This document shows, piece after piece, positions 4,992-27,835 of a stretch of 28,405 nucleotides of DNA (position 1 is the stretch's first letter; every line of letters starts with the position of its first letter). This DNA is from a virus, in the IMG/VR virus record IMGVR_UViG_3300045611_000251, positions 1 to 28,405 of that record; one strand, 5' to 3'. The notes under the pieces were generated by a model that did no database searches, was not told the DNA's origin, and worked only from the letters and a program-made list of their open reading frames with translations. The translations under genes were made by a program, and so were the position numbers.

Positions 4992-5156
4992 TTAGAGTAT
5001 GATACTCTTGTCAGTTATTCTCTTCGTTGTCTGCTTGGAGATAATCTGGTCGATATACTCGTCGATGTGCTTATCCAGCATCATCAGCGCCTTCTTATTG
5101 ATTTGTTTGTTCAGCGCCCACACCTTAGATTTTACTATACTATATTTTATCATCAT
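4992..5156 (-). CDS. Possible minimal histone-fold protein, 54 aa
   Basis: ATG at 5156 overlaps the TAA of the glycosyltransferase gene (TAATG). After a basic start (KYSIVKSKVWALNKQ) the pattern NKKALMMLDKHIDEYIDQII followed by KRITDKSI resembles the long alpha2 helix, loop and KRTI/D element of the single histone folds of archaea and some bacteria. The protein is very short, since a full fold needs about 60-65 residues, so this is a tentative match. If correct, it would bind DNA. Otherwise it is a small basic helical protein of unknown role. Confidence 0.45.
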   Translation of the reverse strand: MMIKYSIVKSKVWALNKQINKKALMMLDKHIDEYIDQIISKQTTKRITDKSIIL

Positions 5157-6001
5157 TATTCACCTTTCTCATCGTCTATCTCTACCAGCTTCATTCCATA
5201 GTTATTAGTCACGTCTGGGATAGCTAATCCAGCTCTCATCACCAGCTTGTTCTTCTTAAATCCATCGTAGTTCACCTCGTGATACCATCGTTCATATCTC
5301 CATACCACCCTGACTATATCTGGGTGCTGTCTCTGCAGTGACTCTGCAAATTCTCTCCTCTTGTCTCCAGTATTATAGATGGTGTCTGTGTTACCTCCTT
5401 TCATCTCCAGCGTGGGTGTCTTATAGCAGAAGAATGCGTAGAATAATACCGTGCACCATCCATCCTTGAGTATCCTTATTGAGAGGTCAGTATCCTCGTT
5501 ATATCTTCCTCTCCAGCGATAGGGTATGTCATTCTTTAGTAGGATACACGAGTAGATGCGTGTGTTGATTGCGAATGGCGCAACTTTAGTCTTCCTCGGA
5601 ATGAAGTAGTCATACTGAAGTCCTGCCATGGCTACGTTCTCATATCTATCCACGAAGTCCTCGGCGCATCTCAGTATAGCTCCTGATGATACCCTTATCT
5701 TCAGGTTATAGTTGAGTCTTCCAAATCCGTCTATGTTGTCATCCATTATCCAGTAGCGTTCTACGCCTGTGGTCATGGCATGCTCCCACACCCAGTTACG
5801 CGCAGGTATAGAACCCTGTCCTAGGTTGCTGAATGGGAGCGTGAATATCTTGTCTCTATCTATCACCGCCGCATAGTTGTCATACTCCTGTGGCTCGACT
5901 ACTATGTGATAAGGAACACGCATCTCTTCGAGAGCTTTACTGGTCAGTCTGCTCTCCCAGCGTCCCTTAGAGATTATGTATATCGGATATCTCGGATTCA
6001 T
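5156..6001 (-). CDS. TET-associated glycosyltransferase (TAGT) family, DNA base modification
   Basis: The 281-residue protein matches the TAGT family closely: YPIYIISKGRWESRLTSKAL at 5-24, VVEPQEYDNYA at 34-44, NLGQGSIPARNW at 59-70, MDDNIDGF at 86-93 (the GT-A metal and nucleotide-sugar Asp motif), RYNEDTDLSIRILKDGWC at 166-183 and MKGGNTD at 200-206. In phages these enzymes are linked to sugar addition onto oxidised 5-methylcytosine in DNA. I chose the ATG at 6001, which has AGAGGTGG upstream. An upstream TTG at 6022 would add seven residues. It overlaps its usual partner gene upstream. No TET dioxygenase or cytosine methyltransferase is seen in the window. Confidence 0.88.
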   Translation of the reverse strand: MNPRYPIYIISKGRWESRLTSKALEEMRVPYHIVVEPQEYDNYAAVIDRDKIFTLPFSNLGQGSIPARNWVWEHAMTTGVERYWIMDDNIDGFGRLNYNLKIRVSSGAILRCAEDFVDRYENVAMAGLQYDYFIPRKTKVAPFAINTRIYSCILLKNDIPYRWRGRYNEDTDLSIRILKDGWCTVLFYAFFCYKTPTLEMKGGNTDTIYNTGDKRREFAESLQRQHPDIVRVVWRYERWYHEVNYDGFKKNKLVMRAGLAIPDVTNNYGMKLVEIDDEKGE

Positions 6002-6374
6002 CCATCCACCTCTTATTCTCAACTCTCATCTCAGGAACTGCAGGAAACCATATCGATGGAGTATTCTCTGTGATGTTCTGTCTAACGAGTTGCACGAAGT
6101 CATGTAAGCTAGCGAGTCTCAGATATTTAGTCTCATGTGTAATCCCAGGTATGTTCATTAGTCTAGAGAAGCTTCGTAGGTCATCTATGTTAGCGAAGTG
6201 GACATAGATTATCCTGTCATGGATGTTATATCCATTCTTATCGAAGTAGTCTTCAAAGTGAACTTCTATGGTATTCCATGGCTCGAGGTCTTCCTGGACG
6301 AACTCTGGCATATTCTTCCAGTGCTGTCGCCATAGAGTCATCTCATCAAAGTTATCGAACAGCGAGTCGTTCAT
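5967..6374 (-). CDS. Conserved phage protein with MPEF and SIWFP motifs
   Basis: The start (WRQHWKNMPEFVQEDLEPW), a central VHF...IDDLRSF segment and the late TPSIWFPAVPEM motif match a widespread phage protein of unknown function that I recall as often being encoded directly before TAGT glycosyltransferases. ATG at 6374 overlaps the upstream stop (TGATG), and the end overlaps the glycosyltransferase start. An earlier GTG at 6377 is less likely. A role in the same DNA modification pathway is inferred from context only. Confidence 0.7.
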   Translation of the reverse strand: MNDSLFDNFDEMTLWRQHWKNMPEFVQEDLEPWNTIEVHFEDYFDKNGYNIHDRIIYVHFANIDDLRSFSRLMNIPGITHETKYLRLASLHDFVQLVRQNITENTPSIWFPAVPEMRVENKRWMDESEISDIHNL

Positions 6375-11472: not shown

Positions 11473-12339
11473 TCAGTATCCTAAGTAGTCGTAGTCAGCC
11501 TTGCACTTCTTGCACATGTATCCCATCCTCGTCTGCGACAGCTCTCTTCGCTCATGCCAGTCGAAGCAGTTGCTGCACTGCTTCGCTTCTGACTTGACGG
11601 GCGAGTCATGGCGCAGGTGCTTCTTCCTGCACTTCGCACAGAGCAGCGTGTTCACGAACTTCCCCTGGGTCACGGTGCGCACGCTCTTGCTGCTTCCGCA
11701 CACGTCGCACGTGTCCAGCCATCCAGGCCACTCTCCATAGAGTGACTGCGTCTGCTCGAGGATGAACGGCTTGTAGGTGTGATTGGAGAACAGTAAGCCG
11801 TTGTCGTCTACGTATTCTCCGTAGAGGCGAAGCTCACCACGTCTGTCCAGTATGGCCAGCTTGTCTGAGCCTATGAAATTCTTCACCAGCCTGTCCACAG
11901 CTGGATTGTCCAGCGAGTCGCGTATGGCTGGATTGCTCAGTATCTCCATCACGAACTTCTGCGTGTCGCTGAACTTCTCGTGCCTAGCTAGGTGGCCGAT
12001 GACCCCGTTGTGAGCCAGCGCAGCGTTGCAGACTATCGTCGGCGCTCTCAGCATGCTCTTGTCACTGGTGATAGGAAACGGATGCCTGTTTCCCACGTCG
12101 GTGAGTCCGTGCGTAGCTAGGCGAAAGTGAATCACGCACGTGTCCTCGGTGCTCACGTTGTCCTTCATCCACTCGTGGAACTGGTCCGCATCTCGAAACG
12201 TCTTGTTGATGTGGACTCCCATCGAGTCAGACTTGTGCCACATCACTCCTATCCCATCCTTATTCACCCGCTGACACTGTCTCAGCGTGTCCAGGCTGGG
12301 ACAAGCGACCCCTGGCTTCTTCACTATGATTATGCACAT
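11473..12339 (-). CDS. Class II glutamine amidotransferase-like protein with zinc-ribbon tail
   Basis: The protein starts MCIIIVKK, so Met removal would expose Cys2 as the Ntn-type nucleophile. HFRLATHG at 71-78, NRHPFPI at 84-90, AHNGVI at 109-114 and SDTQKFV at 124-130 match the glutamine pocket and oxyanion motifs of class II amidotransferases, which release ammonia from glutamine. Residues about 205-288 add two zinc-ribbon-like parts: Cys211/Cys214 with Cys234/Cys237, and Cys255/Cys258 with Cys276/Cys279. It overlaps the amidoligase by 10 bases. Such pairs are known from bacterial and phage clusters thought to make amide or peptide modifications. GGAGGGG upstream is a strong start site. 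Confidence 0.85.
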   Translation of the reverse strand: MCIIIVKKPGVACPSLDTLRQCQRVNKDGIGVMWHKSDSMGVHINKTFRDADQFHEWMKDNVSTEDTCVIHFRLATHGLTDVGNRHPFPITSDKSMLRAPTIVCNAALAHNGVIGHLARHEKFSDTQKFVMEILSNPAIRDSLDNPAVDRLVKNFIGSDKLAILDRRGELRLYGEYVDDNGLLFSNHTYKPFILEQTQSLYGEWPGWLDTCDVCGSSKSVRTVTQGKFVNTLLCAKCRKKHLRHDSPVKSEAKQCSNCFDWHERRELSQTRMGYMCKKCKADYDYLGY

Positions 12340-13487
12340 GTCAACCCCTCCATTCTCATCAGCCTCATCAGCTGAGCGTATCTGTTGCTGCTCTCGACGA
12401 ACATCGCGAAGTCGTCCCAGCAGTGACGTCTCATGTGGCCGAATGCGCAGAATTCCACCAGCGCATCCACCAGCTGAACGTCTGCCATCAGCCTCCAGTG
12501 GAGCAGCGTGCCTCTGAAGATGCGCACCTCCAGCGTAGGCTGCGAGCTGTTGCAGTTCAACGCCCAGTATCTTCCCGACTGCGCCTCGCTCGTCTCGGAC
12601 AGCGACTCGAACCTGCAGTAGTCCGTGTTGCGCCCCCTGCGGTTACTCAGCGTGGCCAGCTCTGACTTGTGCAGAGCGAAGAAGCGACGCATGTTATTCA
12701 TCTGTCTCTCGCTCAGTCCAGACTTGCTCACGTGCACGTGGAGGCCGCACCGTCCGTTATCGTGGCTGGTGCATCCTCGTCTCTGGAGCTCCTTGAGGAT
12801 GCGGTGCCATCCTATCAGGTGCATGGACTGGAGCGTGGGGGGATGGGTGACCACCTCGAATCCGCTGCTCAACGACCCGTCATGCTTACAGTATATCCTA
12901 TCGCTCAAGCTCTTCACCCTCGAGGCCACATCGTCCGCATCAGCATCTGGAGACTCGACCTCCAGCTCTACGCCTAGGAACGTGGTGTTCTCCCACGCCT
13001 GCTTCGAGAACACGAACCTGCTGGGTGACCAGCTGTAGCTCTGGATGGGTCGACACGCCTCATAGCACGAGTAACAGACGCGCCTGCCATCGACCTCTCT
13101 GGTATCATCTCTCCACGTCAGCGTGCGACACGACTCGCAGCACACGAGGTATCTCTCCACGCACGATAGGCAGATACGCTCGCCGTCCCAGAAGACTGTG
13201 CGATTGGCGCTGCGCTCACTCACGCTATGGCATCTGTCGCAGCGGACGAATCTCGTGCGCCAGCAATCGTTGTGATATTCTCTTCCGTCTGGACCTGACG
13301 TGGTAAAAATATAAAGGTGGGTGGGTTTATTGCAGATGGGACATCGCGGCTCTCTCGACCACTCTCTAGCTATCCTCTGGATGTAGTGCTCTGATGTTCG
13401 TGGTGACTGGTCACGAAGCGAGGCGACGATTTGCCCTATCGGTGTTTCTCTATCTAGGGCTCGATAGATGAATCTCTTTACGTTCAT
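12330..13487 (-). CDS. Putative amidoligase with N-terminal zinc ribbons
   Basis: The C-terminal half matches the glutamine-synthetase-fold amidoligase family: FLGVELEVES at 170-179, KHDGSLSSGFEVVTHP at 201-216, CGLHVHVS at 247-254 and LEVRIFRGTL at 319-328. These enzymes use ATP to join an amine to a carboxylate. The N-terminal about 150 residues carry successive cysteine pairs (Cys49/52, Cys83/86, Cys106/109, Cys117/120, Cys138/141) with His72 and Cys75, so several treble-clef or ribbon zinc sites, perhaps for binding a protein or nucleic acid target. It is the first gene after the divergent promoter and overlaps the amidotransferase gene, which could supply ammonia or hydrolyse gamma-glutamyl amides. 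Confidence 0.87.
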   Translation of the reverse strand: MNVKRFIYRALDRETPIGQIVASLRDQSPRTSEHYIQRIAREWSREPRCPICNKPTHLYIFTTSGPDGREYHNDCWRTRFVRCDRCHSVSERSANRTVFWDGERICLSCVERYLVCCESCRTLTWRDDTREVDGRRVCYSCYEACRPIQSYSWSPSRFVFSKQAWENTTFLGVELEVESPDADADDVASRVKSLSDRIYCKHDGSLSSGFEVVTHPPTLQSMHLIGWHRILKELQRRGCTSHDNGRCGLHVHVSKSGLSERQMNNMRRFFALHKSELATLSNRRGRNTDYCRFESLSETSEAQSGRYWALNCNSSQPTLEVRIFRGTLLHWRLMADVQLVDALVEFCAFGHMRRHCWDDFAMFVESSNRYAQLMRLMRMEGLTCA

Positions 13488-17008: not shown

Positions 17009-17185
17009 ATGACTGTCATTGAGTATCTCGCTTCACGATTGGATAGAGAGATGACCCAGGTGGAGATTGACTTTGGGGACAGCAACTTTCTTGAGAGGCT
17101 TGATTTTTTGGCTTTATGCCTTCAGGCAAAAGAACTGCTTTTAGAAGAAAGAAAGAGAGAAAAAGATGTTGCGGATAAACAGTGA
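17009..17185 (+). CDS. Small helical protein, 58 aa
   Basis: Charged, helical product (MTVIEYLASRLDREMTQVEI and RLDFLALCLQAKELLLEERK) ending 20 bases inside the portal gene, so probably coupled to it. No clear ribosome binding site. The amphipathic pattern is protein-like. Unknown function, possibly an accessory packaging protein. Confidence 0.5.
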   Translation: MTVIEYLASRLDREMTQVEIDFGDSNFLERLDFLALCLQAKELLLEERKREKDVADKQ

Positions 17186-19079
17186 TGAGATAAGGCGCTG
17201 GCGCATAGAGATAGAGCAGGCGGAGAAATTCAAAGAGGAGAATTTCGGGAGTTCGGCGAAAGATAGGATAAGGTTGTCAGGAGAGAATATCCTCTACTTT
17301 GAGAAAGGTTATTCTGCCCGCTACCTGCAAGACTATTCCAAGATTGACCCTAATTACATTGTTCCCATCAACATCATCTATCCTATCATCAAGAATGTGG
17401 TCCCGTCGCTGTATTATAAAAATCCTTATGTCCTGGCGATACCCAAGAGGAAGCAGGATGAGGAAAGCTCCTCTTATGTGACCGCCCTGCTGAACTATTT
17501 CTTTAAGCAACTTGACATAAAGTCGGTGAACCAGCAAATTATCTTTGACGCCTATATCATTGGTATGGGGGTATGTAAGATAGGTTATTCAACAAAGTTT
17601 GGGAAGGACATTGAGGATGAGAACCTTGAAAAAGAAAGGGAGAAGGGAAAGATACAGAGAATCAAGGAGTTATTGCGCCTGGCAAAGCCGAAGGAGGAGG
17701 AAGTTAAGCAGAACATAGACTTGAATGAGTTCATCATCTCAGAGAACCCCTATGTGACTTGGGTCAATCCCTTTAATTTCGGCATAGACCCTCAGGCGAC
17801 ATCAATCTACAATGCAAGTTATGTCTATGAAAAAGTCACCACCACCATCTCAAGGGTGAAGAATAACTCAAACTACAACAACACTAAAGACTTGGTGGGA
17901 GGGGAATTAGAGCCTAATTACATAAAGGACATCCCGTCAACCCAAATTGAGAACTTTAAGCCCATAGATTTATATGAGATACATTACAAGACTGACAAAG
18001 GGATAAACATACTGGTATTGGCTAAAGACCAGAACGATTACCTGCCCCTGCGCCACGACGAGAGCATATATGATATGGATGGCTTCCAGTATGAGGTTCT
18101 CACATTTAATAAGCACGGTCATAAACTTTATCCCATATCCGATGTGGATATAATCAAGCCGTTGCAGGACAGGATAAATAATTCCTTTGAGGCTATACTT
18201 GAGCAGATTGATAAATTCGTGAGCAAGATAATAGTTGATGAGACAGGAATGACCGTGAGTGGGAGGAAGGCACTTGAGGATGGAGAGTTGGGTTCTATCT
18301 GCTTCAGCAATAAGAATCCTAATGAGGTTGTAAAGGAGTTATCCCTGACGCAAGTCAGGGGTGATATGATTAGCATCATTGAGAAGATGATTGACATAAT
18401 TTCCCTTGAGACAGGGATTACAAGGGCGATGCTGACAGGGATGACCTCTGCCGAGACCGCCACCGAGGCTCAGATAGGGCAGGCAGGCGCCAACCTGCGC
18501 TTGTCAGATAAGGCGGACATAGTGGCTGATTTCTCAAACAGGCAGGCAAGGAAACTATGGCAGGTAATCAGGCAATTTGTAGACTTGGAAGAAGTGCAGT
18601 TAATCACAGGAGAAAATGCCTTTGATGATATAACTGGGACGCCAAGATATTCCTGGCTTGCAGATATTGACAATGTGAAGAGGGAGAAAATCATCAAGGG
18701 CGAGTATGATTTCCAGATTGAGGTTGGCTCAACCCAGAAGCCTGACTTGCCTATTCTACGCAAGCAGATTGAGAATATGGTGAATATCCTCGGTGGAAAA
18801 GGAGTATTAGAGGCATTTGCCGCACAGGGATACAAGATAGAACTTGCCGAGATATTCAGGAAATACCTGATGCTGTTTCCAGATGTCTTTAACAATGTGG
18901 GAAGGATAATCAAGCCCATACAACAGGCGCAAGCGCCTATGGGGATGGGAAATCCTCCGTTAGGGACTACGGGCGGTGGAATAGGGGCAGTTCCGCAACA
19001 GGTTCAACAGGCACCGCCTAATACCGCAGACATAATCTCAAGTATGGGAGGCGAGAAAGGAAATATACCTATCGCATAA
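17166..19079 (+). CDS. Portal protein
   Basis: At 637 residues this has the size and composition of P22-type or podovirus portals. It forms the dodecameric ring at the capsid vertex through which DNA passes. Visible features include the aromatic N-terminal core (RIRLSGENILYFEKGYSARY), YIVPINIIYPIIKNVVPSLY, the clip/wing region with WVNPFNFGIDPQAT, the long helix with LEQIDKFVSKIIVD, and TGMTSAETATEAQIGQAGAN before the crown. The last 60 residues are Pro/Gln/Gly-rich. It follows terL and precedes the scaffold and capsid genes, the standard order. Confidence 0.88.
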   Translation: MLRINSDEIRRWRIEIEQAEKFKEENFGSSAKDRIRLSGENILYFEKGYSARYLQDYSKIDPNYIVPINIIYPIIKNVVPSLYYKNPYVLAIPKRKQDEESSSYVTALLNYFFKQLDIKSVNQQIIFDAYIIGMGVCKIGYSTKFGKDIEDENLEKEREKGKIQRIKELLRLAKPKEEEVKQNIDLNEFIISENPYVTWVNPFNFGIDPQATSIYNASYVYEKVTTTISRVKNNSNYNNTKDLVGGELEPNYIKDIPSTQIENFKPIDLYEIHYKTDKGINILVLAKDQNDYLPLRHDESIYDMDGFQYEVLTFNKHGHKLYPISDVDIIKPLQDRINNSFEAILEQIDKFVSKIIVDETGMTVSGRKALEDGELGSICFSNKNPNEVVKELSLTQVRGDMISIIEKMIDIISLETGITRAMLTGMTSAETATEAQIGQAGANLRLSDKADIVADFSNRQARKLWQVIRQFVDLEEVQLITGENAFDDITGTPRYSWLADIDNVKREKIIKGEYDFQIEVGSTQKPDLPILRKQIENMVNILGGKGVLEAFAAQGYKIELAEIFRKYLMLFPDVFNNVGRIIKPIQQAQAPMGMGNPPLGTTGGGIGAVPQQVQQAPPNTADIISSMGGEKGNIPIA

Positions 19080-20012: not shown

Positions 20013-20738
20013 ATGCCGGAACAAAATCAGGACGCACAAGCAGGCTCGTCCTCTGCATTAGGCGAAGCGATTGCCTCGTTGCCAGAGGTGCAACAAGAAG
20101 CGCAATCTGTTCAGCAAGAGTCGCAGGCGCCAACTGCGCAACAAGGCGAAACTCAAGAGCAGAATGTGCCGTTTAACCAGCATCCCCGTTTTCAGGAGTT
20201 AATTGAGGAGCGGAATTATTACCGTGAACAATTATCTAACCTGATACAGCAACGGCAACAACAACCACAGCAACCGCAACAAGCACCGCAAGAGATAGGC
20301 AATACCCCAGAGGAGAGGGAGTTCTGGAGGATGCAAAGGCAGATTGCCAGGGAAGAAGCGATGAAGGTAGCAAGTGAAAAGGAAAAGGAAATTTCCAATT
20401 CTATTGCTATCCTTACGCAGGAAATTACAAGCACAAGGTTGCAGGATTTTCGTAACCGCCATCCCGACATAAAGCCTAATTCTCCAGAGGAAAGGGCGAT
20501 TGCCGAAAAGGTAGCTCAACGTATACCATTGGAGGATGCCTATCGTATTGTGATGTATGATAAAAAGATTGCCGAAGCTGGAAAGCAGGGGGTGCAACAG
20601 TCAAAGCAACAGATGGAAGCCAAGAAGCAGGCTAATGTTGAGCAAAACTCTATTCCTCCGAATGCGGTTCCTCCCACAAAGGAGAAACTTACACTTCGCC
20701 AGAGGATAGAGAAAAATGCGAAAGAGATGGGCTTTTAG
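20013..20738 (+). CDS. Putative capsid scaffold protein
   Basis: A 241-residue, Gln- and Glu-rich, largely helical protein directly before the major capsid gene, as expected for a scaffold. A disordered start (Ala/Gln/Ser/Glu) leads to NQHPRFQELIEERNYYREQL, a Gln/Pro-rich segment (Q-run near 72-85), then helices with EEREFWRMQRQIAREEAMK and a basic C-terminus (LTLRQRIEKNAKEMGF) that would contact the capsid shell. HPRFxxLIEER-type segments recur in phage scaffolds. AAGGG upstream. The gene ends in TAG. Confidence 0.75.
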   Translation: MPEQNQDAQAGSSSALGEAIASLPEVQQEAQSVQQESQAPTAQQGETQEQNVPFNQHPRFQELIEERNYYREQLSNLIQQRQQQPQQPQQAPQEIGNTPEEREFWRMQRQIAREEAMKVASEKEKEISNSIAILTQEITSTRLQDFRNRHPDIKPNSPEERAIAEKVAQRIPLEDAYRIVMYDKKIAEAGKQGVQQSKQQMEAKKQANVEQNSIPPNAVPPTKEKLTLRQRIEKNAKEMGF

Positions 20739-20766: not shown

Positions 20767-21732
20767 ATGGCATCGGGTAATTCAAGTTATACTGCATTGA
20801 TTACCTCTACCCTGCAAAATCTCCCCGCAGAAGTCTTTGACGCAGTTTCTACCAACAATGCACTACTTTATATGCTCCAGAAGAAGGGCAACCTAAAGAT
20901 AGTGTCAGGTGGTAGAAGTTTCACTCACCCAATATATTACAAGCAAAATACCTCATTCAGGTCATATGGAAAGACAGATACTATTGATACGCCCTTGATG
21001 GATGACATCACCAGAGCAGAATATCCTATCAAGACAATCGCTGGTTCTGTGGTAATTTCTATGCTTGAAGAGGCGATGAATGCTGGCAATAGAGAGAAGT
21101 TGATTGACTTGGTTGAGGAAACTGTTACCAGGGCAAAGATTTCTATGTCGGAGACTTTAGGGGACCAGGTATTCAAGGATGGTTCTGCAGCAAATGATAT
21201 GGATGGGCTGCAACATTTAATCAATTCTTCGCCGTCAACACAAACAGATGTTGGAGGAATTGACCCATCAGCCACGGGAAATACTTACTGTCGTAACCAA
21301 GCTGATACTAATGCTACTAATTTTAATGCCACCGCTGCTACTACTTTCGCAGAATTATCGGCACAGGTTACAAATTGCACCTATGGTCGCCAAGGTCCGA
21401 GGTTAGTGGTAACGACAAAGACCTTGTATGCTGAATATGAGAGTTTGCTCACATCCAATATCCGCTATGTTACGACTGAACTTGCGGATGCTGGATTCTT
21501 GCACCTCGCATACCAGACTATGCCAGTAGTATTTGATGACAACTGCTCCGCAAATACGATGTATCTGGTTGATACTGACAATTTGTGGTTGCAGGTGTTA
21601 GCACAAGGCAATATGGAGTTAACGGATATGCAACAGTCAACCGACCAGTTAATGAAGGTTGCGTTGCTATATCTATTTGGCAACCTTACCACTGGTTCTC
21701 GTAGAACCAATGGTTATATCTTATGGTCATAA
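20767..21732 (+). CDS. Major capsid protein (HK97-fold type)
   Basis: The 321-residue protein has the features of short HK97-like phage capsid proteins: an N-terminal arm, then GNLKIVSGGRSFTHPIYYKQ, the P-domain-like strand MDDITRAEYPIKTIAGSVVI, the spine helix IDLVEETVTRAKISMSETLG, SSPSTQTDVGGIDPSATGN, and late strands PRLVVTTKTLYAEYESLL and MPVVFDDNC. Position after the scaffold and the high expected expression support this. It ends at the TAA that overlaps the hairpin before the next gene. Confidence 0.88.
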   Translation: MASGNSSYTALITSTLQNLPAEVFDAVSTNNALLYMLQKKGNLKIVSGGRSFTHPIYYKQNTSFRSYGKTDTIDTPLMDDITRAEYPIKTIAGSVVISMLEEAMNAGNREKLIDLVEETVTRAKISMSETLGDQVFKDGSAANDMDGLQHLINSSPSTQTDVGGIDPSATGNTYCRNQADTNATNFNATAATTFAELSAQVTNCTYGRQGPRLVVTTKTLYAEYESLLTSNIRYVTTELADAGFLHLAYQTMPVVFDDNCSANTMYLVDTDNLWLQVLAQGNMELTDMQQSTDQLMKVALLYLFGNLTTGSRRTNGYILWS

Positions 21733-21743: not shown

Positions 21744-22271
21744 ATGAAAAGATACCTATTTTTTGTCTTGGCACTCCTATTGACTATTGGAGTTGCCAGT
21801 GCGGCGAATATACCTACCGCAGTTGACCCGCAGAATGGACCAGAAGTATGGACGATGGAAGTCTATAATGATTCCGGTGGTGCATTGACTTCAGGTTCAG
21901 TAGTAGTGTGGGATTATACAGATGACGATATGTATAAAATTGAAAATCGTAAGATGTATATAACCACCACTACAACTGCTGATGATATTGCGGTGGCGGG
22001 AGTTGTCGTTGATGACTCTATTCCTGCTGGTAGTGTTGGGACAATCGCAATTTATGGTCCGGTAAAAGCAAAAGCATCTAATTCAGGAGTCACTGCCGGA
22101 TATATAGTAGGCACCGGCACAACCGAGGGGACTTGCGATAACTATTCCAACACAGGGGACAATGACGGAACTCTCGGATGGGGAATCAGAGCTAACAGTG
22201 AGGGGACGAAAGGTGGTGGAACCAACATTCCGATAATTTTCGTCAATCCTCATCAGGACGCATCGCCGTAA
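21744..22271 (+). CDS. Signal-peptide-bearing putative virion protein, 175 aa
   Basis: Encoded right after the major capsid, where decoration or head fibre proteins usually lie. It begins with a clear Sec signal (MKRYLFFVLALLLTIGVASA, likely cut before ANIPT). The mature part is beta-rich with VWTMEVYNDSGGALTSGSVV, DDIAVAGVVVDDSIPAGSVG and GYIVGTGTTEGTC, like small decoration or spike domains. AAGGAGG lies 6 bases upstream, so the start is secure. Export of a protein in this position is unexpected for a normal phage. Confidence 0.7.
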   Translation: MKRYLFFVLALLLTIGVASAANIPTAVDPQNGPEVWTMEVYNDSGGALTSGSVVVWDYTDDDMYKIENRKMYITTTTTADDIAVAGVVVDDSIPAGSVGTIAIYGPVKAKASNSGVTAGYIVGTGTTEGTCDNYSNTGDNDGTLGWGIRANSEGTKGGGTNIPIIFVNPHQDASP

Positions 22272-22280
22272 AAAACAAAT

Positions 22281-22309
22281 GGGGGGGGTTATCTCCCCCC
22301 TGTCTTTAT
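22281..22309 (+). terminator. G/C hairpin, terminator-like, before the lipoprotein gene
   Basis: A run of eight G (22281-22288) faces CCCCCC (22295-22300) with a short TTATCT loop, followed by TGTCTTTAT. This resembles an intrinsic terminator with a weak T-tract. The next gene begins at once (ATG 22310) with no ribosome binding site of its own. It may reduce expression after the head genes. Confidence 0.5.
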
Positions 22310-22543
22310 ATGAAATATATAATTTTAATCCTAATTTTCTTAATTTCCGGGTGCGCAACTATATATTACCCGATAGATGTTGACACGAGCAAGATAAAAT
22401 ATATCTCCAATTTTGATACTGTGCATATAAAATGTTCTATATGTAAAGGCGATGCCGTGGTTTATAAATATACCAAGAGCGGGAAGATTATCTGCCCAAG
22501 ATGTTTCAGGAAATTAAGAAACCATAACCTTTATGATAGATAA
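22310..22543 (+). CDS. Lipoprotein with zinc-ribbon-like cysteine pairs
   Basis: A lipoprotein signal with lipobox LISGC (Cys15) is followed by a short mature domain that has Cys42-x2-Cys45 (KCSICKG) and Cys62-x2-Cys65 (ICPRCFRK), a zinc ribbon spacing. Zinc ribbons are normally cytoplasmic, so a lipidated, exported one is unusual; in the periplasm these cysteines might form disulphides instead. The stop overlaps the start of the O-antigen ligase-like gene, so the two are probably co-translated. Confidence 0.7.
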   Translation: MKYIILILIFLISGCATIYYPIDVDTSKIKYISNFDTVHIKCSICKGDAVVYKYTKSGKIICPRCFRKLRNHNLYDR

Positions 22544-23657
22544 GTTATTCATAGCGTTCTTTGCTATTTTACCTTTTTCAAATTTTCTTTTCAAGAAAGT
22601 TAATATTTGGCACGCACAAGGGCAGTTCTTTCAGGTAGGATTGTTAGTCCTATTTTGCGCTTCGTTCTTTGAAAAATCTAAATATACCCAATCGGTGAAC
22701 AAGCCTTTGGGGTTATTTCTGCTATGGTCAGGTTTGACTACGGCATATCACTGGATTGATATCATAGCACAGACTAACAATTATCCAGTTAAGCTATTCT
22801 TCCCTTTCTTCAACCTTCTCTGTGCAGTTATATTATACCGATTATGCGTAGAATATTTAGATAAGGAAAAGATTGGGAAAATACTGAAATATTTTTCTTA
22901 TAGCGTCATCATACTGTTGTTCTATTGCGTATTACAATATTTACAGTTAGATGAGTTTTTTAAAGGGATTTCTGGAAATCAAGATGAACTTGTAGGAACA
23001 ATAGGAAACAAAAGTCATCTTTCGGGTTATCTTGCCTTATGCCAACCGTTGTTCTTTGAAAAAAAGATAGTAAATATCCTTGCCTTAATTTTATTATGGT
23101 TAATCATTTTCATTGCGGGTTCAGTTTCGGGATTATGTTGTGGATTTGCTATTTTATTGTTTTATCTTTTTTTTAAGAAAAAATGGGTTTATTTTACTTT
23201 AATCCTGTCATCTATACTATCAAGCGGTATATATCTTTTTGTAAAATGTCCTTATTTTTTTACTTCAAGTCATCGGGTTGAGTTATGGATGGAGATATTC
23301 CAAAAGTTAAGATTAAAAGCAATTACTGGATATGGATTGGGATATTTTGAGACACTTAAAATTTATATTGAAAGGTCTGTCTGGCGGCATTTTCATAATG
23401 AGTATTTACAGGTGGTTTTTGAGATAGGGGTTATCGGCTTGGCGCTGTTGTGCTGGTTAATCTGGGATTATTTTAAGAATTTCAGGGTGCTTAAAACAGA
23501 TTTATCAATAAGGTTAGCCAGTATGTTCTTTGGATACTGCATTCTGGCTCTATTTACCTTTAATGCCCACTTGTGGATATTGAGCGGAATAGGGGTTATG
23601 AGTTATAGTTTTCTTTATTGTTTAAGAGATTTTAAACCTCAGATATTAGGAGCGTAA
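22533..23657 (+). CDS. O-antigen ligase/polymerase (WaaL/Wzy)-like membrane protein
   Basis: A 374-residue integral membrane protein with about ten hydrophobic segments. The family features are GTIGNKSHLSGYLALCQPLF at 155-174 after an extracytoplasmic loop, then the large periplasmic loop with Arg248 and Trp252 (HRVELWMEIFQ), GYGLGYFE at 266-273, and the HNEYLQVVFEIGVIGL motif with His288. These match O-antigen ligases and polymerases that move undecaprenyl-linked glycans. In phages such enzymes alter host surface sugar and block further infection. Its place in the middle of head and tail genes is odd, since such genes usually sit at the edge. Confidence 0.8.
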   Translation: MIDKLFIAFFAILPFSNFLFKKVNIWHAQGQFFQVGLLVLFCASFFEKSKYTQSVNKPLGLFLLWSGLTTAYHWIDIIAQTNNYPVKLFFPFFNLLCAVILYRLCVEYLDKEKIGKILKYFSYSVIILLFYCVLQYLQLDEFFKGISGNQDELVGTIGNKSHLSGYLALCQPLFFEKKIVNILALILLWLIIFIAGSVSGLCCGFAILLFYLFFKKKWVYFTLILSSILSSGIYLFVKCPYFFTSSHRVELWMEIFQKLRLKAITGYGLGYFETLKIYIERSVWRHFHNEYLQVVFEIGVIGLALLCWLIWDYFKNFRVLKTDLSIRLASMFFGYCILALFTFNAHLWILSGIGVMSYSFLYCLRDFKPQILGA

Positions 23658-23658
23658 T

Positions 23659-24657
23659 ATGAAAACCCGTTTGGAAATTCGCACTCGTGTAGCTACAGAT
23701 ACAAGAGAAACACAGATAAATACCGCAATAGAAGAATACATCAACCAGACTCTCTTGGAATTGCAGGAGCCAGCGTGGGCTTTTGAGCAGATACAAGGTT
23801 TCAGGGGCTTTAGCCATCTCTGGAGTTTTAACCGCAGGAAGACTACTCTTGCCACAGCCGCCTCAACAGAGTTCTATCAACTGCCAAGGGATGTGGATAA
23901 AATCGGTTTAATCAGGCAGATTACTACTCCCACAAAGATAAATTTTATTCCTGATGACTTATTTTATGAGTATATCCCCTATCCTACGGCAACAGGGAAT
24001 CCCAGATGGTATAGGATATGGGAAGAAGAAGGGGTTGAGGTGAGGTTGTCAACTGATGATATGATTGAAGTTCTTTCTTCTTCTTCAAGCGATACTTCGC
24101 AGACGGTAAGGATAGTCGGTTATGACACAAACGGGCTATTAAGGACAGAGAGTCTTACCCTGACAGGCGAGACTGCGGTAGCAGGCACGATAACTTATGA
24201 TGCTGGTAAAATTCTGCGGGTGTCAAAATCGGCAGATACGACGGGGATAATCACGGTAAGGGAAAAGACCGCAGATACTACCTTGGTTAAATTAGCCCCC
24301 ACAGAGAGGACAGCAAGATTTAAGATTATATCATTCTATCCAATCCCATCTTCAGCAATAACATTATATATAGAGTATTTTACCGCAATTCGCAGGCTTG
24401 AGGGCGATAATGATGTCCCCGATATTCCAGAAAAGTGGCTTTGGCTTGTAAGAGTAGGAACGATGGCTAAGGTATATCAGTATCAGAATAAGGAAAGTTT
24501 GTTCAACACTATGCAGGGGATATATGCCACCGGCGTAAGGGCGATGGTAAAATCGGATATGCAGAATGCGGATTATATCCCCGCACTCAGGTCGCAACTC
24601 AATAACTTAGGCAATAAGGATATTCTTGATTTAGTTGATTTGCCATTAGGGGTTTAA
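23659..24657 (+). CDS. Head-to-tail adaptor / connector-like protein, 332 aa
   Basis: The N-terminal domain (TRLEIRTRVATDTRETQINT and AIEEYINQTLLELQEP) and the C-terminal segment (DVPDIPEKWLWLVRVGTMAK) match phage connector proteins that bind below the portal. Between these is a beta-rich insertion (residues about 110-225, with SQTVRIVGYDTNGLLRTES). Length is above the usual simple adaptor, reflecting the insertion. AGGAG precedes the start, one base after the previous gene. It would join the head to the tail nozzle. Confidence 0.7.
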   Translation: MKTRLEIRTRVATDTRETQINTAIEEYINQTLLELQEPAWAFEQIQGFRGFSHLWSFNRRKTTLATAASTEFYQLPRDVDKIGLIRQITTPTKINFIPDDLFYEYIPYPTATGNPRWYRIWEEEGVEVRLSTDDMIEVLSSSSSDTSQTVRIVGYDTNGLLRTESLTLTGETAVAGTITYDAGKILRVSKSADTTGIITVREKTADTTLVKLAPTERTARFKIISFYPIPSSAITLYIEYFTAIRRLEGDNDVPDIPEKWLWLVRVGTMAKVYQYQNKESLFNTMQGIYATGVRAMVKSDMQNADYIPALRSQLNNLGNKDILDLVDLPLGV

Positions 24658-26487
24658 ATGAAAAAAATAGCATTCACATTATTGTTCAGTTTATTTTTAA
24701 TCGTTAATTCTTTTGCACAGGAAAAGTCAAGAGTTTATCCTTCCCAAGGTTTGCAGGTCTTTCTTGGTCTTGATGACACTTCAAGTCCTCCTACCGTCAA
24801 GGATGGCAGGGCTGCCGATTTACAGAATATCACCCTTGATGTAACTGGTGCTGCCACAAAGCGCAGTGGTTATGCGTTCTTATCTATGCTTGATATGAAT
24901 GCCGCAGTTGATAGTTTTGAGGCGGTTACAGGGATTTATGAACTCTATAAGTCGGATGGCACAAGGACAATCTTATCTTCTTGCGGCAGCAAGTTATTCA
25001 AGATAACCACCGCAGGAGTTAGGACTGAGATTACCGGCACGGTCACCATAACCGAGGGGCAGAACTATCAGTTCTCCTGGGTTACCGCCCTTGATTATGC
25101 CATAGGGACAAATGGGACTGACCCGATAATAAAAACCAACGGGACTACCACCTCTGTCTTAAATGTCTCCAGTTTATCAAATGCACTTACCGATGCCAAA
25201 TGCGTTATCTGGTGGAAGAATTATCTCGTAGTAGGCAATACCATTGAGGCGGGGACAAAGCATACCACACGCATTCGTTGGTCTAATGTCGGGACTATTG
25301 AGACTTGGTCTGATGATGATTATGTGGATATTGCTGCTTTGGGCGGTCAACAGATAGAGGCATTGATTACCCTCTATGATGACTTATATGTATTCCTTAC
25401 CGATAGCATTTATAAGGTTTCCCTTGTGGGCGGTGATGAGTTAATAAATGTAACAAAAGTGTCGGAAGGCATAGGGTGCATTGCCAAAAACTCCGTCAAG
25501 AATATCGCCATAGGGAACAGTGAGGGGATTATATTTCTCTCAAGGGATAAGACCATAAATTACCTTGATGGCGTAAAGGTTATGGAAATATCATCATCAA
25601 TCATCAACCTGATGGATGGATTGTCTGCCGCACGGCTTCCTTATGCGGTTGCGGTAGATGATAGGACTAACTCCCATTATTATCTCTCAGTCACCAATGG
25701 AAGCGCAAGCACTAATAATCTTCTGCTTGATTTTCATTATGGCATAGGGGAATGGTCAAAACATACTGGAATAAATGCTAATGCTTTTGGTATTGCCAAC
25801 GATACAAATGAAGTCTTGCAAGTATATTTCGGTAACTATAAATCTTTTGTGTATCAGTTATCCGACCCTGATAAGAATAGCGATGTGGCAGGAGAGTTGG
25901 GGGTATTTGACAGCAAGGGGACGATTGATACTGATACCGCAAGTGGATTGGTTATATTATATGATGCTTCGGCAGATTTTACCGATGTTACAGGCGCAAC
26001 AGTAACGATTACTTCCGGCACAGGCGAAGATGAGACATCAATAGTTTGCTCAACGAAGACTGCCACTGGGATAGTTGTAACCGATGCTTTGACTGCTACA
26101 ACAAATTCCGGATATTCCATAGGTGCTATTGATGCCTATTATACGACTAAATGGTATGATACTGGGGTTTCCACGAGGCGCAAGAATTTTGGAGAACTAT
26201 TCCTCTGGGCAACTAGTGAGACTTCAGCCACGATGCAGATTTATTCTGCGACCGATTTTTCATCAACAATCAATTCAACTGATGTGACCTTGGCTACTGA
26301 TGGTTCATTGTGGGGAACGGCTATATGGGGGACGGATACCTGGGGTGGCACATCAACATCACTCACAAGAGTTCCCTTAAGTGTCTCGGGAAGGTTTATA
26401 AAGTATAAATTCTCAGAAAATACCATTGATGAGCCGATGGAGTTATTTGGGTATTCCACATTACTCTGGGATTTAGATGAGTTCTAA
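24658..26487 (+). CDS. Phage tail nozzle/stabilisation-like protein with N-terminal signal peptide, 609 aa
   Basis: The region after residue 30 (SQGLQVFLGLDDTSSPP, GRAADLQNITLDVTG, ATKRSGY) is typical of large phage tail or stabilisation proteins that begin with a short motif about DNA-proximal gene products, and most of the rest is beta-propeller-like (WVTALDYAIGTNGTDPIIKT, RWSNVGTIETWSDDDYVDI, FLTDSIYKVSLVGGDE). However, the protein starts with a clear signal peptide (MKKIAFTLLFSLFLIVNSFA, cut before QEKSR). The ATG directly follows the previous stop, and the next Met is too far inside to be the start. An exported tail protein of this type is unusual. Confidence 0.72.
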   Translation: MKKIAFTLLFSLFLIVNSFAQEKSRVYPSQGLQVFLGLDDTSSPPTVKDGRAADLQNITLDVTGAATKRSGYAFLSMLDMNAAVDSFEAVTGIYELYKSDGTRTILSSCGSKLFKITTAGVRTEITGTVTITEGQNYQFSWVTALDYAIGTNGTDPIIKTNGTTTSVLNVSSLSNALTDAKCVIWWKNYLVVGNTIEAGTKHTTRIRWSNVGTIETWSDDDYVDIAALGGQQIEALITLYDDLYVFLTDSIYKVSLVGGDELINVTKVSEGIGCIAKNSVKNIAIGNSEGIIFLSRDKTINYLDGVKVMEISSSIINLMDGLSAARLPYAVAVDDRTNSHYYLSVTNGSASTNNLLLDFHYGIGEWSKHTGINANAFGIANDTNEVLQVYFGNYKSFVYQLSDPDKNSDVAGELGVFDSKGTIDTDTASGLVILYDASADFTDVTGATVTITSGTGEDETSIVCSTKTATGIVVTDALTATTNSGYSIGAIDAYYTTKWYDTGVSTRRKNFGELFLWATSETSATMQIYSATDFSSTINSTDVTLATDGSLWGTAIWGTDTWGGTSTSLTRVPLSVSGRFIKYKFSENTIDEPMELFGYSTLLWDLDEF

Positions 26488-26806
26488 AAAATTTATAATC
26501 ATCAGTTTTGTTTTAGGTCTTTTTCTTGGTTTGGCAATTTCAGTTAATGCTTACCGATTTGAGAAGCCACAGAGGATAACCGCCTTTGATGAGAATAACC
26601 TTGTGATACTAAATAGGGTCTTGGAGCAACTCTGGGATTTGACTAATGGAAGATACAGTCCTGACTCTGGCTTAACTGCGTCAACAGGGACTGGAACAAT
26701 AAAGATGGGGTCAGTAAATAATGCTAATAGTGTAGGATGGATTAAATTTACCAAGACAGATGGCACAGCAATTTATATCCCATACTGGTCAACGGATGCG
26801 CCATAA
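26477..26806 (+). CDS. Small exported putative virion protein, 109 aa
   Basis: The N-terminus has a signal peptide (about residues 1-25, ending AISVNA before YRFEK). The mature part has a helical segment (ITAFDENNLVILNRVLEQLW) and a C-terminal strand pattern (VGWIKFTKTDGTAIYIPYW) that resembles small phage fibre or collar domains. It overlaps the previous gene by 11 bases, and lies directly before the fibre gene, so is likely tail-associated. The exact role is unknown. Confidence 0.6.
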   Translation: MSSKKFIIISFVLGLFLGLAISVNAYRFEKPQRITAFDENNLVILNRVLEQLWDLTNGRYSPDSGLTASTGTGTIKMGSVNNANSVGWIKFTKTDGTAIYIPYWSTDAP

Positions 26807-26815
26807 GGAGAAATT

Positions 26816-27835
26816 ATGAAAAAGTTGTTTTTATCTCTATCTTTGTTTTTAATCCCATTACTTTGCTTCGCAGCACCTCCCTCCAGAACGTATAGTTATG
26901 TCTCCGGTAGTATAATCCAGCCAGATGAAGTTCAGACCAATGAGGATAATATATATCGGTATCTGCAGGTTGGCGTGGATACACTTTCCAATAATTCAGT
27001 AACTACTTCAAATATAACTGATGGCACAATCGTTAATGCGGATATTTCTGGAAGTGCCGCAATCGTAGGGAGCAAACTTGATTTATCTACGCCTGGAGCA
27101 ATAGGTGGGACTACGCCATCAACAGGGACTTTTAGCACCTTGACTGCAACAACAATCAATGCCTTTACGCTTGGTGGAAAAATTACCGGAGGTTCAAGTG
27201 AGATAGAGGGTTCTAACTTTGATATTGATGGTGGCACAATAGATGGGGCAACGATAGGCGGGGCTTCTGCAGGAGTAGGGACATTTACCTCTATAACTAC
27301 CCCTTCATTAACCGCTACAGGTAACCTTGATATTGGTTCTTATTCTTTTACTGCTCAAACTTTAGTTTCCGATATTGCGATTGGCACTGCGCCTTTTACA
27401 GTGACATCCACAACAAAAGTAACTAATCTTAATGCCGACCAACTTGATGGACAAGATGATTCGTATTATACCAATATGTCTAATGCGGCTTCTGGAACAT
27501 TGGCAGTTGCAAGAGGTGGAACTGGAATAACTGGAAAAATTCTTAATATTGTAACATATACAGGAAATAATAGCAATCAGACGGTGGCACACGGATTAGG
27601 GACAACTCCTGCGATTATAATAATTTGCGAAACAGGTGATAATAATAGCAATCCGTATTTATGGATGACTGGGTATCCTACTAATAAAATGCGTTCAATA
27701 GATGCTGCGGGAAGTATCGTATCAAGTGTTTTTACAGCTGCACCTGACGCAACTAATGTTTATCTTACAGGCGGTAAAACCGATGTTAATGAAAATGGTC
27801 TTGGTTATATGATGATTTCTATAAGAAGCCAATAA
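26816..27835 (+). CDS. Tail-fibre-like protein with signal peptide, 339 aa
   Basis: Residues 1-19 are a signal peptide (MKKLFLSLSLFLIPLLCFA before APPSR). The next part has phage fibre repeats: GGTTPSTGTFSTLTATTIN, GGTIDGATIGGASAGVGTFT, LNADQLDGQDDSYY and GTLAVARGGTGITGK, patterns of trimeric shaft segments. The last 90 residues (NQTVAHGLGTTPAIIIICE and NVYLTGGKTDVNENG) look like a receptor-binding tip of the H-type. AAGGAG gives a good start. It should bind the host surface; the exported form is unexpected. Confidence 0.78.
   Translation: MKKLFLSLSLFLIPLLCFAAPPSRTYSYVSGSIIQPDEVQTNEDNIYRYLQVGVDTLSNNSVTTSNITDGTIVNADISGSAAIVGSKLDLSTPGAIGGTTPSTGTFSTLTATTINAFTLGGKITGGSSEIEGSNFDIDGGTIDGATIGGASAGVGTFTSITTPSLTATGNLDIGSYSFTAQTLVSDIAIGTAPFTVTSTTKVTNLNADQLDGQDDSYYTNMSNAASGTLAVARGGTGITGKILNIVTYTGNNSNQTVAHGLGTTPAIIIICETGDNNSNPYLWMTGYPTNKMRSIDAAGSIVSSVFTAAPDATNVYLTGGKTDVNENGLGYMMISIRSQ

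Follow-up and report, generated by a model that had tools for sequence, protein, structure and literature searches.

The closest described phages are the SU10/P22-type podoviruses (SU10, P22, Pa223 and VP1, with Mx8 and BUCT555 by capsid protein). These phages and the clade analysed here have the portal and adaptor families and the nozzle fold in common, and their genes follow the same order of major capsid protein (MCP), cement, adaptor, nozzle, fibres and ejection proteins. Unlike in the clade, however, no virion-module protein tested had a signal peptide (0/78), and no WaaL-like gene was found in the isolates. Standard teaching places all of tailed-phage morphogenesis in the cytoplasm, and the broad set of uncultured phages described here appears to break this rule. 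That a protein has no signal peptide has been taken as a point in favour of phage origin (PMC6199706).

In the filamentous phage M13, the virion proteins pIII and pVIII are made as Sec/YidC-dependent preproteins (PMC8310372), and the clade resembles M13 in having predicted preprotein virion parts. The M13 coat proteins, however, remain inner-membrane proteins until the particle is extruded, whereas the clade consists of tailed dsDNA phages with predicted soluble exterior parts. Membrane assembly of the filamentous type did not agree with the data: the mature parts of the signal-bearing proteins had no second hydrophobic or transmembrane segment, and the head genes were of the tailed-phage type.

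PglL, TfpO/PilO, TfpM and PglS share with the clade the Wzy_C fold and a gene position beside an exported substrate candidate, and the genes of substrate-specific O-oligosaccharyltransferases (O-OTases) typically adjoin those of the exported proteins that they modify (PMC12645811, PMC3643930). The enzyme found here differs from PglL-type O-OTases in being phage-encoded, in lying beside capsid genes and in lacking the first conserved Arg, and its activity is putative. The fold, the second Arg and the His are shared with the O-antigen ligase WaaL (7tpg), but the identity is 12%, the first catalytic Arg is missing and the gene is not in an LPS locus.

None of the INPHARED isolates carried this enzyme or a signal-bearing cement or fibre. 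No precedent for signals on tailed-phage virion proteins or for phage O-OTases was found in the literature searched, with preprints and most subscription papers outside its scope. The single components are known, and no tailed phage combining them turned up in these searches; for the mechanism the odds were about even.

Gene layout of the window

The window, that is, the whole stretch of DNA analysed, is a 28.4-kb IMG/VR virus record and represents a podovirus fragment with an SU10/P22-type head. Genes for recombination, replication and DNA modification occupy its left half; the head genes comprise terminase, portal, scaffold-position protein, MCP and adaptor. The features were as follows:

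17166..19079, + strand: portal (SU10_portal, 2.1e-16); no signal peptide
20013..20738, + strand: scaffold-position protein, between portal and MCP; no signal peptide
20767..21732, + strand: MCP (phrog_9953, 5.7e-55); no signal peptide
21744..22271, + strand: cement/decoration-position protein directly after the MCP; predicted Sec signal 21744-21803 (20 aa, ASA^AN)
22310..22543, + strand: small lipoprotein with an ISGC lipobox; position kept in most relatives
22533..23657, + strand: Wzy_C/WaaL-fold polytopic membrane protein (PF04932 above gathering); candidate O-oligosaccharyltransferase or ligase
23659..24657, + strand: head-tail adaptor (SU10_adaptor, 2.4e-13); no signal peptide; stop abuts the nozzle start
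24658..26487, + strand: predicted tail nozzle (beta-propeller); predicted Sec signal 24658-24717 (20 aa, SFA^QEK)
26477..26806, + strand: small tail protein (fibre/attachment type); predicted Sec signal 26477-26551 (VNA^YR)
26816..27835, + strand: fibre-type protein; predicted Sec signal 26816-26872 (CFA^APP)

An ORF cut by the window edge (3-281, + strand) ended in ...GPAVTLAIKF, like the C-terminus of an outer-membrane beta-barrel, and a signal-bearing 149-aa protein in the late region of relative G002 (L052:16392-16841, - strand) ended in ...AFVKLEVKF. These barrel-like ends suggest a phage-encoded outer-membrane protein. A diderm host is indicated by the lipoprotein and the barrel-like C-terminus at the window edge, encoded at 3-278; a search of GTDB contigs for the host with MCP and nozzle alignments gave no match. 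Also observed on the - strand were a TAGT glycosyltransferase (5156-6022; PF20691, 2.2e-46), of a family tied to hypermodified DNA bases, an Amidoligase_2 gene adjoining a gene with weak likeness to glutamine amidotransferase (11473-13487), a pair unusual in phage, and a PEGA-domain protein with a lipoprotein-type N-terminus (LLLGCAT; 2415-2819).

Signal peptides and the proteins that carry them

Signals were called by a rule-based caller that used n-region charge, h-region hydrophobicity and the -3/-1 rule; it recovered 8/8 textbook E. coli signals and called 0.24% of shuffled window proteins. The sequence-only reading had placed Sec signals on the proteins at 21744, 24658, 26477 and 26816. 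All four were called, and the signals were kept in the homologues. Each had the basic n-region, hydrophobic h-region and small -3 and -1 residues of a Sec/SPI signal, and the predicted cuts were MKRYLFFVLALLLTIGVASA^ANIP (21744), MKKIAFTLLFSLFLIVNSFA^QEK (24658), MSSKKFIIISFVLGLFLGLAISVNA^YRF (26477) and MKKLFLSLSLFLIPLLCFA^APP (26816).

The relatives were about 30 related contigs, a few of them near-duplicates, obtained from scans with the nozzle and the capsid protein. By the same caller, signals were present in the cement family in 25/25, the nozzle family in 20/22, the small tail protein family in 16/16 and the fibre family in 16/17; the three misses (two nozzle, one fibre) lay just below the cut-off and by eye were signals. 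Portal (0/22), scaffold (0/28), MCP (0/28) and adaptor (0/23) had none. In these uncultured short-tailed phages, the predicted signals are on the particle-exterior parts (cement, nozzle and fibres) and not on the parts of the DNA-filled head. The longest relatives (39-43 kb) encoded further signal-bearing late proteins, two with LamG domains, and three ejection-type genes of the long relatives were without signals.

The small residues at -1 and -3 were kept although the signal cores diverge. Residue -1 was Ala, Ser or Gly in 24/24 cases when the small-protein and fibre families were aligned on the mature motif alone; the nozzle family was left out of this independent count because its alignment anchor itself used Ala. 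An artefact of wrong starts or chance hydrophobic N-termini is highly improbable. Weak ribosome-binding sites before some nozzle genes would favour it, but conservation of the signals across dozens of contigs refutes it. A start-codon error was ruled out by an AAGGAGG ribosome-binding site just 5' of the 21744 ATG, by the conserved cleavage residues and by the finding that the relatives have no recurrent in-frame start (ATG, GTG or TTG) at the cleavage site from which a signal-less form could arise. Chance hydrophobic N-termini were ruled out by the rate for shuffled proteins and by the count of 0/78 that the same caller gave for virion-module proteins of SU10, Mx8, BUCT555, ctMlz233, T7 and P22.

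Distant relatives with 26-33% identical capsid proteins were without the signals, and in the capsid-protein tree a single branch set the signal-bearing phages apart, with support of 85/75 and recovery in 84% of bootstraps. A single gain of the signals is likely, if not firm, on these sequences. Homologues starting after the hydrophobic segment, which the sequence-only reading had taken to speak against it, were found only outside the clade (L015, L042 and known phages); the signals would therefore have been added on the stem of the clade and are not thereby unreal.

The position of the 21744 protein after the MCP fits cement. It matched Phage_cement_2 weakly (PF09956, 18.0 bits; gathering score 24), and in its family 4/20 members gave weak matches (best 3.3e-5). 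For the 609-aa protein at 24658, an AlphaFold2 model had a mean pLDDT of 64.7, with the propeller much better. The top 30 Foldseek matches were all podovirus nozzle or tail chains (Pa223, SU10, VP1, P22 gp10 and T7 gp12), the best being 9nwi_Y (1.7e-18) and SU10 (4.8e-15), and structural alignment with known nozzles gave Z values of 24-29. The predicted beta-propeller fold and the adaptor directly upstream identify this protein as a podovirus tail nozzle. In the structural alignments, residue 23-25 of the model paired with residue 1-2 of the known chains; known nozzles thus start just after the predicted cleavage site, and the signal appears to be an addition to an otherwise normal nozzle. No second, signal-less nozzle copy was present in the six records searched, each having one full-length nozzle match; a weak second match in G002 was another signal-bearing protein and not a nozzle copy.

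Family alignments of the small tail protein (A5) and the fibre (A4) showed a conserved block right after the signal and variable C-termini, which by analogy is the usual layout of virion-attached fibres. The fibre protein at 26816 matched the minor tail protein phrog_2012 (4.6e-5) and DUF7483, and matched INPHARED isolates only via pieces of its variable part. Cys residues in the predicted mature parts were few and variable.

The WaaL-fold enzyme and its signal-bearing neighbours

Between cement and adaptor, a Wzy_C polytopic protein was found wherever this stretch was covered in the clade, and a lipoprotein in most relatives. Neither these two genes nor the recurrence of the enzyme with a signal-bearing protein had been part of the sequence-only reading. 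The protein at 22533 scored 32.8 bits against PF04932 (gathering 31.7), which was matched by 14/14 relatives tested. Its AF2 model (pLDDT 83.6) had WaaL 7tpg as the best solved match (Z 18.0, rmsd 3.9, 301 residues), and RodA/FtsW scored below it (Z about 13). Profile and predicted fold place the protein in the Wzy_C superfamily (WaaL, O-OTase and Wzy).

Compared with the catalytic residues of WaaL (R215, R288 and H338) and PglL (R224, R298 and H349), two of the three positions were kept, namely the second Arg and the His (R248 and H288 of the 22533 protein). No member of the enzyme family had the first Arg, and the activity is uncertain for this reason. One relative's enzyme matched the O-oligosaccharyltransferase TfpM (NF058641, 1.1e-7). 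Neither a glycosylation sequon nor a signature of paired Cys was detected, and a C-terminal Ser/Thr acceptor of the O-OTase type was rejected, as it was not kept in the cement C-termini.

A scan with the enzyme led to phages whose capsid proteins were unrelated by BLAST. WaaL-like genes were present with the capsid type phrog_1005 (L094, L095, L098 and L101), with an MCP-protease capsid type (L115, L116, L123 and L128; phrog_4523, 2e-43) and with further unrelated capsid types (L096/L122 and others). In many of these phages, the gene order was capsid gene, signal-bearing protein and WaaL-like gene. Signals were called in 23/59 immediate neighbours of the enzyme versus 12/172 genes at least three away (Fisher p=4.5e-8, with loci that are not all independent). 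Two signal-bearing neighbours outside the window's clade matched cement families weakly. One signal-protein family travelled with the enzyme beside different capsid families, as would be expected of a working pair, and for the signal-bearing families A8, A9 and A10 homology was not demonstrable. The nozzle, where seen in the unrelated lineages, was without a signal; what all these phages have in common would thus be the signal protein with its enzyme, to which the window's clade would have added the export of nozzle and fibres. The cassette of signal protein and WaaL-like gene common to phages with unrelated capsids was seen at L115:5188-6798, L094:5088-6825 and L096:4896-6699.

Possible readings of virion assembly and further signal-bearing proteins

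The preferred reading is virion assembly in two compartments, with a probability of about 0.5. The proteins without signals (portal, scaffold, capsid, adaptor and the internal ejection type) would be made in the cytoplasm, where the heads would be filled with DNA. Cement, nozzle, small tail protein and fibres would pass through the inner membrane by means of their Sec signals, lose these to signal peptidase I and fold in the periplasm. There, glycan from a lipid carrier would probably be attached by the phage WaaL-fold enzyme, if only to the cement protein encoded next to it, and the exterior parts would meet the DNA-filled heads when lysis opens the inner membrane.

Export of the exterior parts is strongly supported by the predicted signals. 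Fold, synteny and single-copy status argue that these proteins are present in the virion, and we infer that they join the heads late; glycosylation and the place of assembly are put forward as hypotheses. The suggestion that the repeated signals stand for export and that assembly takes place at the inner membrane or outside it was partly supported and fits best, because the cleavage sites are conserved, the signals are only on exterior parts, and the nozzle is otherwise normal and single-copy. Two-compartment assembly is also supported by the ejection-type proteins without signals and the further fibre-type and LamG proteins with them, as well as by the WaaL fold in the clade and the WaaL-like gene adjoining a signal-bearing protein in unrelated lineages. 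Phages of the P22 type depend on the nozzle for retaining DNA in the head. Heads waiting for a periplasmic nozzle would therefore have to be closed otherwise, which is the main difficulty; the missing first Arg of the enzyme, the lack of a sequon or Cys-pair signature and the finding that no holin or endolysin was identified also count against this reading. A fuller version remains tentative and falls somewhat short of even odds: Sec-exported exterior parts would be O-glycosylated at a periplasmic stage by the phage WaaL-type enzyme with host lipid-linked sugar and fitted at lysis to give glycan-coated particles, the cassette being shared between unrelated lineages.

The signals might instead serve only to hold cement, nozzle and fibres at the inner membrane during their synthesis, so that virions are built on its cytoplasmic face with little or no translocation and the leader is removed later. 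Such tethering would avoid the problem of DNA retention, and beta-rich proteins are able to fold before export; it is rather unlikely, since a mere anchor needs no small residues at -1 and -3, which were kept despite diverging cores, and the pairing is with an enzyme of a superfamily acting on the periplasmic side. Phage lipoproteins and O-antigen-modifying enzymes are known exclusion and conversion factors, P22 gtrABC being an example. The exported proteins, the lipoprotein and the WaaL-like enzyme could thus act on the producing cell (receptor masking, superinfection exclusion or surface change) and not be virion parts, for which the outer-membrane-barrel-like protein encoded nearby would also speak. 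This is unlikely: no nozzle copy was found other than the one in this set, which has the virion-nozzle fold and lies directly after the adaptor, the small and fibre proteins have the virion-fibre layout of constant N-terminal block and variable C-terminus, and the gene order is that of ordinary relatives, where these are virion genes.

Export could also serve other folding or maturation (periplasmic chaperones, disulfides), with the WaaL-like enzyme modifying the host surface glycan independently. The absence of one catalytic Arg and of a sequon is in line with this, but the disulfide explanation was rejected on the few and variable Cys in the mature parts, and the enzyme is again found next to a signal-bearing protein in lineages with unrelated capsids, making it decidedly unlikely. 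If assembly in two compartments is true, lysis would include an extra maturation step, virions could acquire a glycan coat, and the time and place at which nozzles and decoration proteins have to bind could be clearly tested. For annotation, signal-bearing phage proteins should not be discarded as non-virion.

In the longest relatives, clusters of signal-bearing, mostly fibre-like or LamG proteins were located 3' of the ejection genes (L050:2237-5784, L055:851-4749 and L052:16392-19437). At L045:12218-13591, a phage whose capsid protein is 26% identical, and which had no WaaL-like gene within the stretch examined, encoded a 457-aa protein with a signal and with parts resembling cyanophage tail fibres; fibre export may have arisen independently here. 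At L006:8280-9944, the adaptor gene contained a long extra inserted stretch (KLLLHCDGIDAST...) with lectin-like resemblance.
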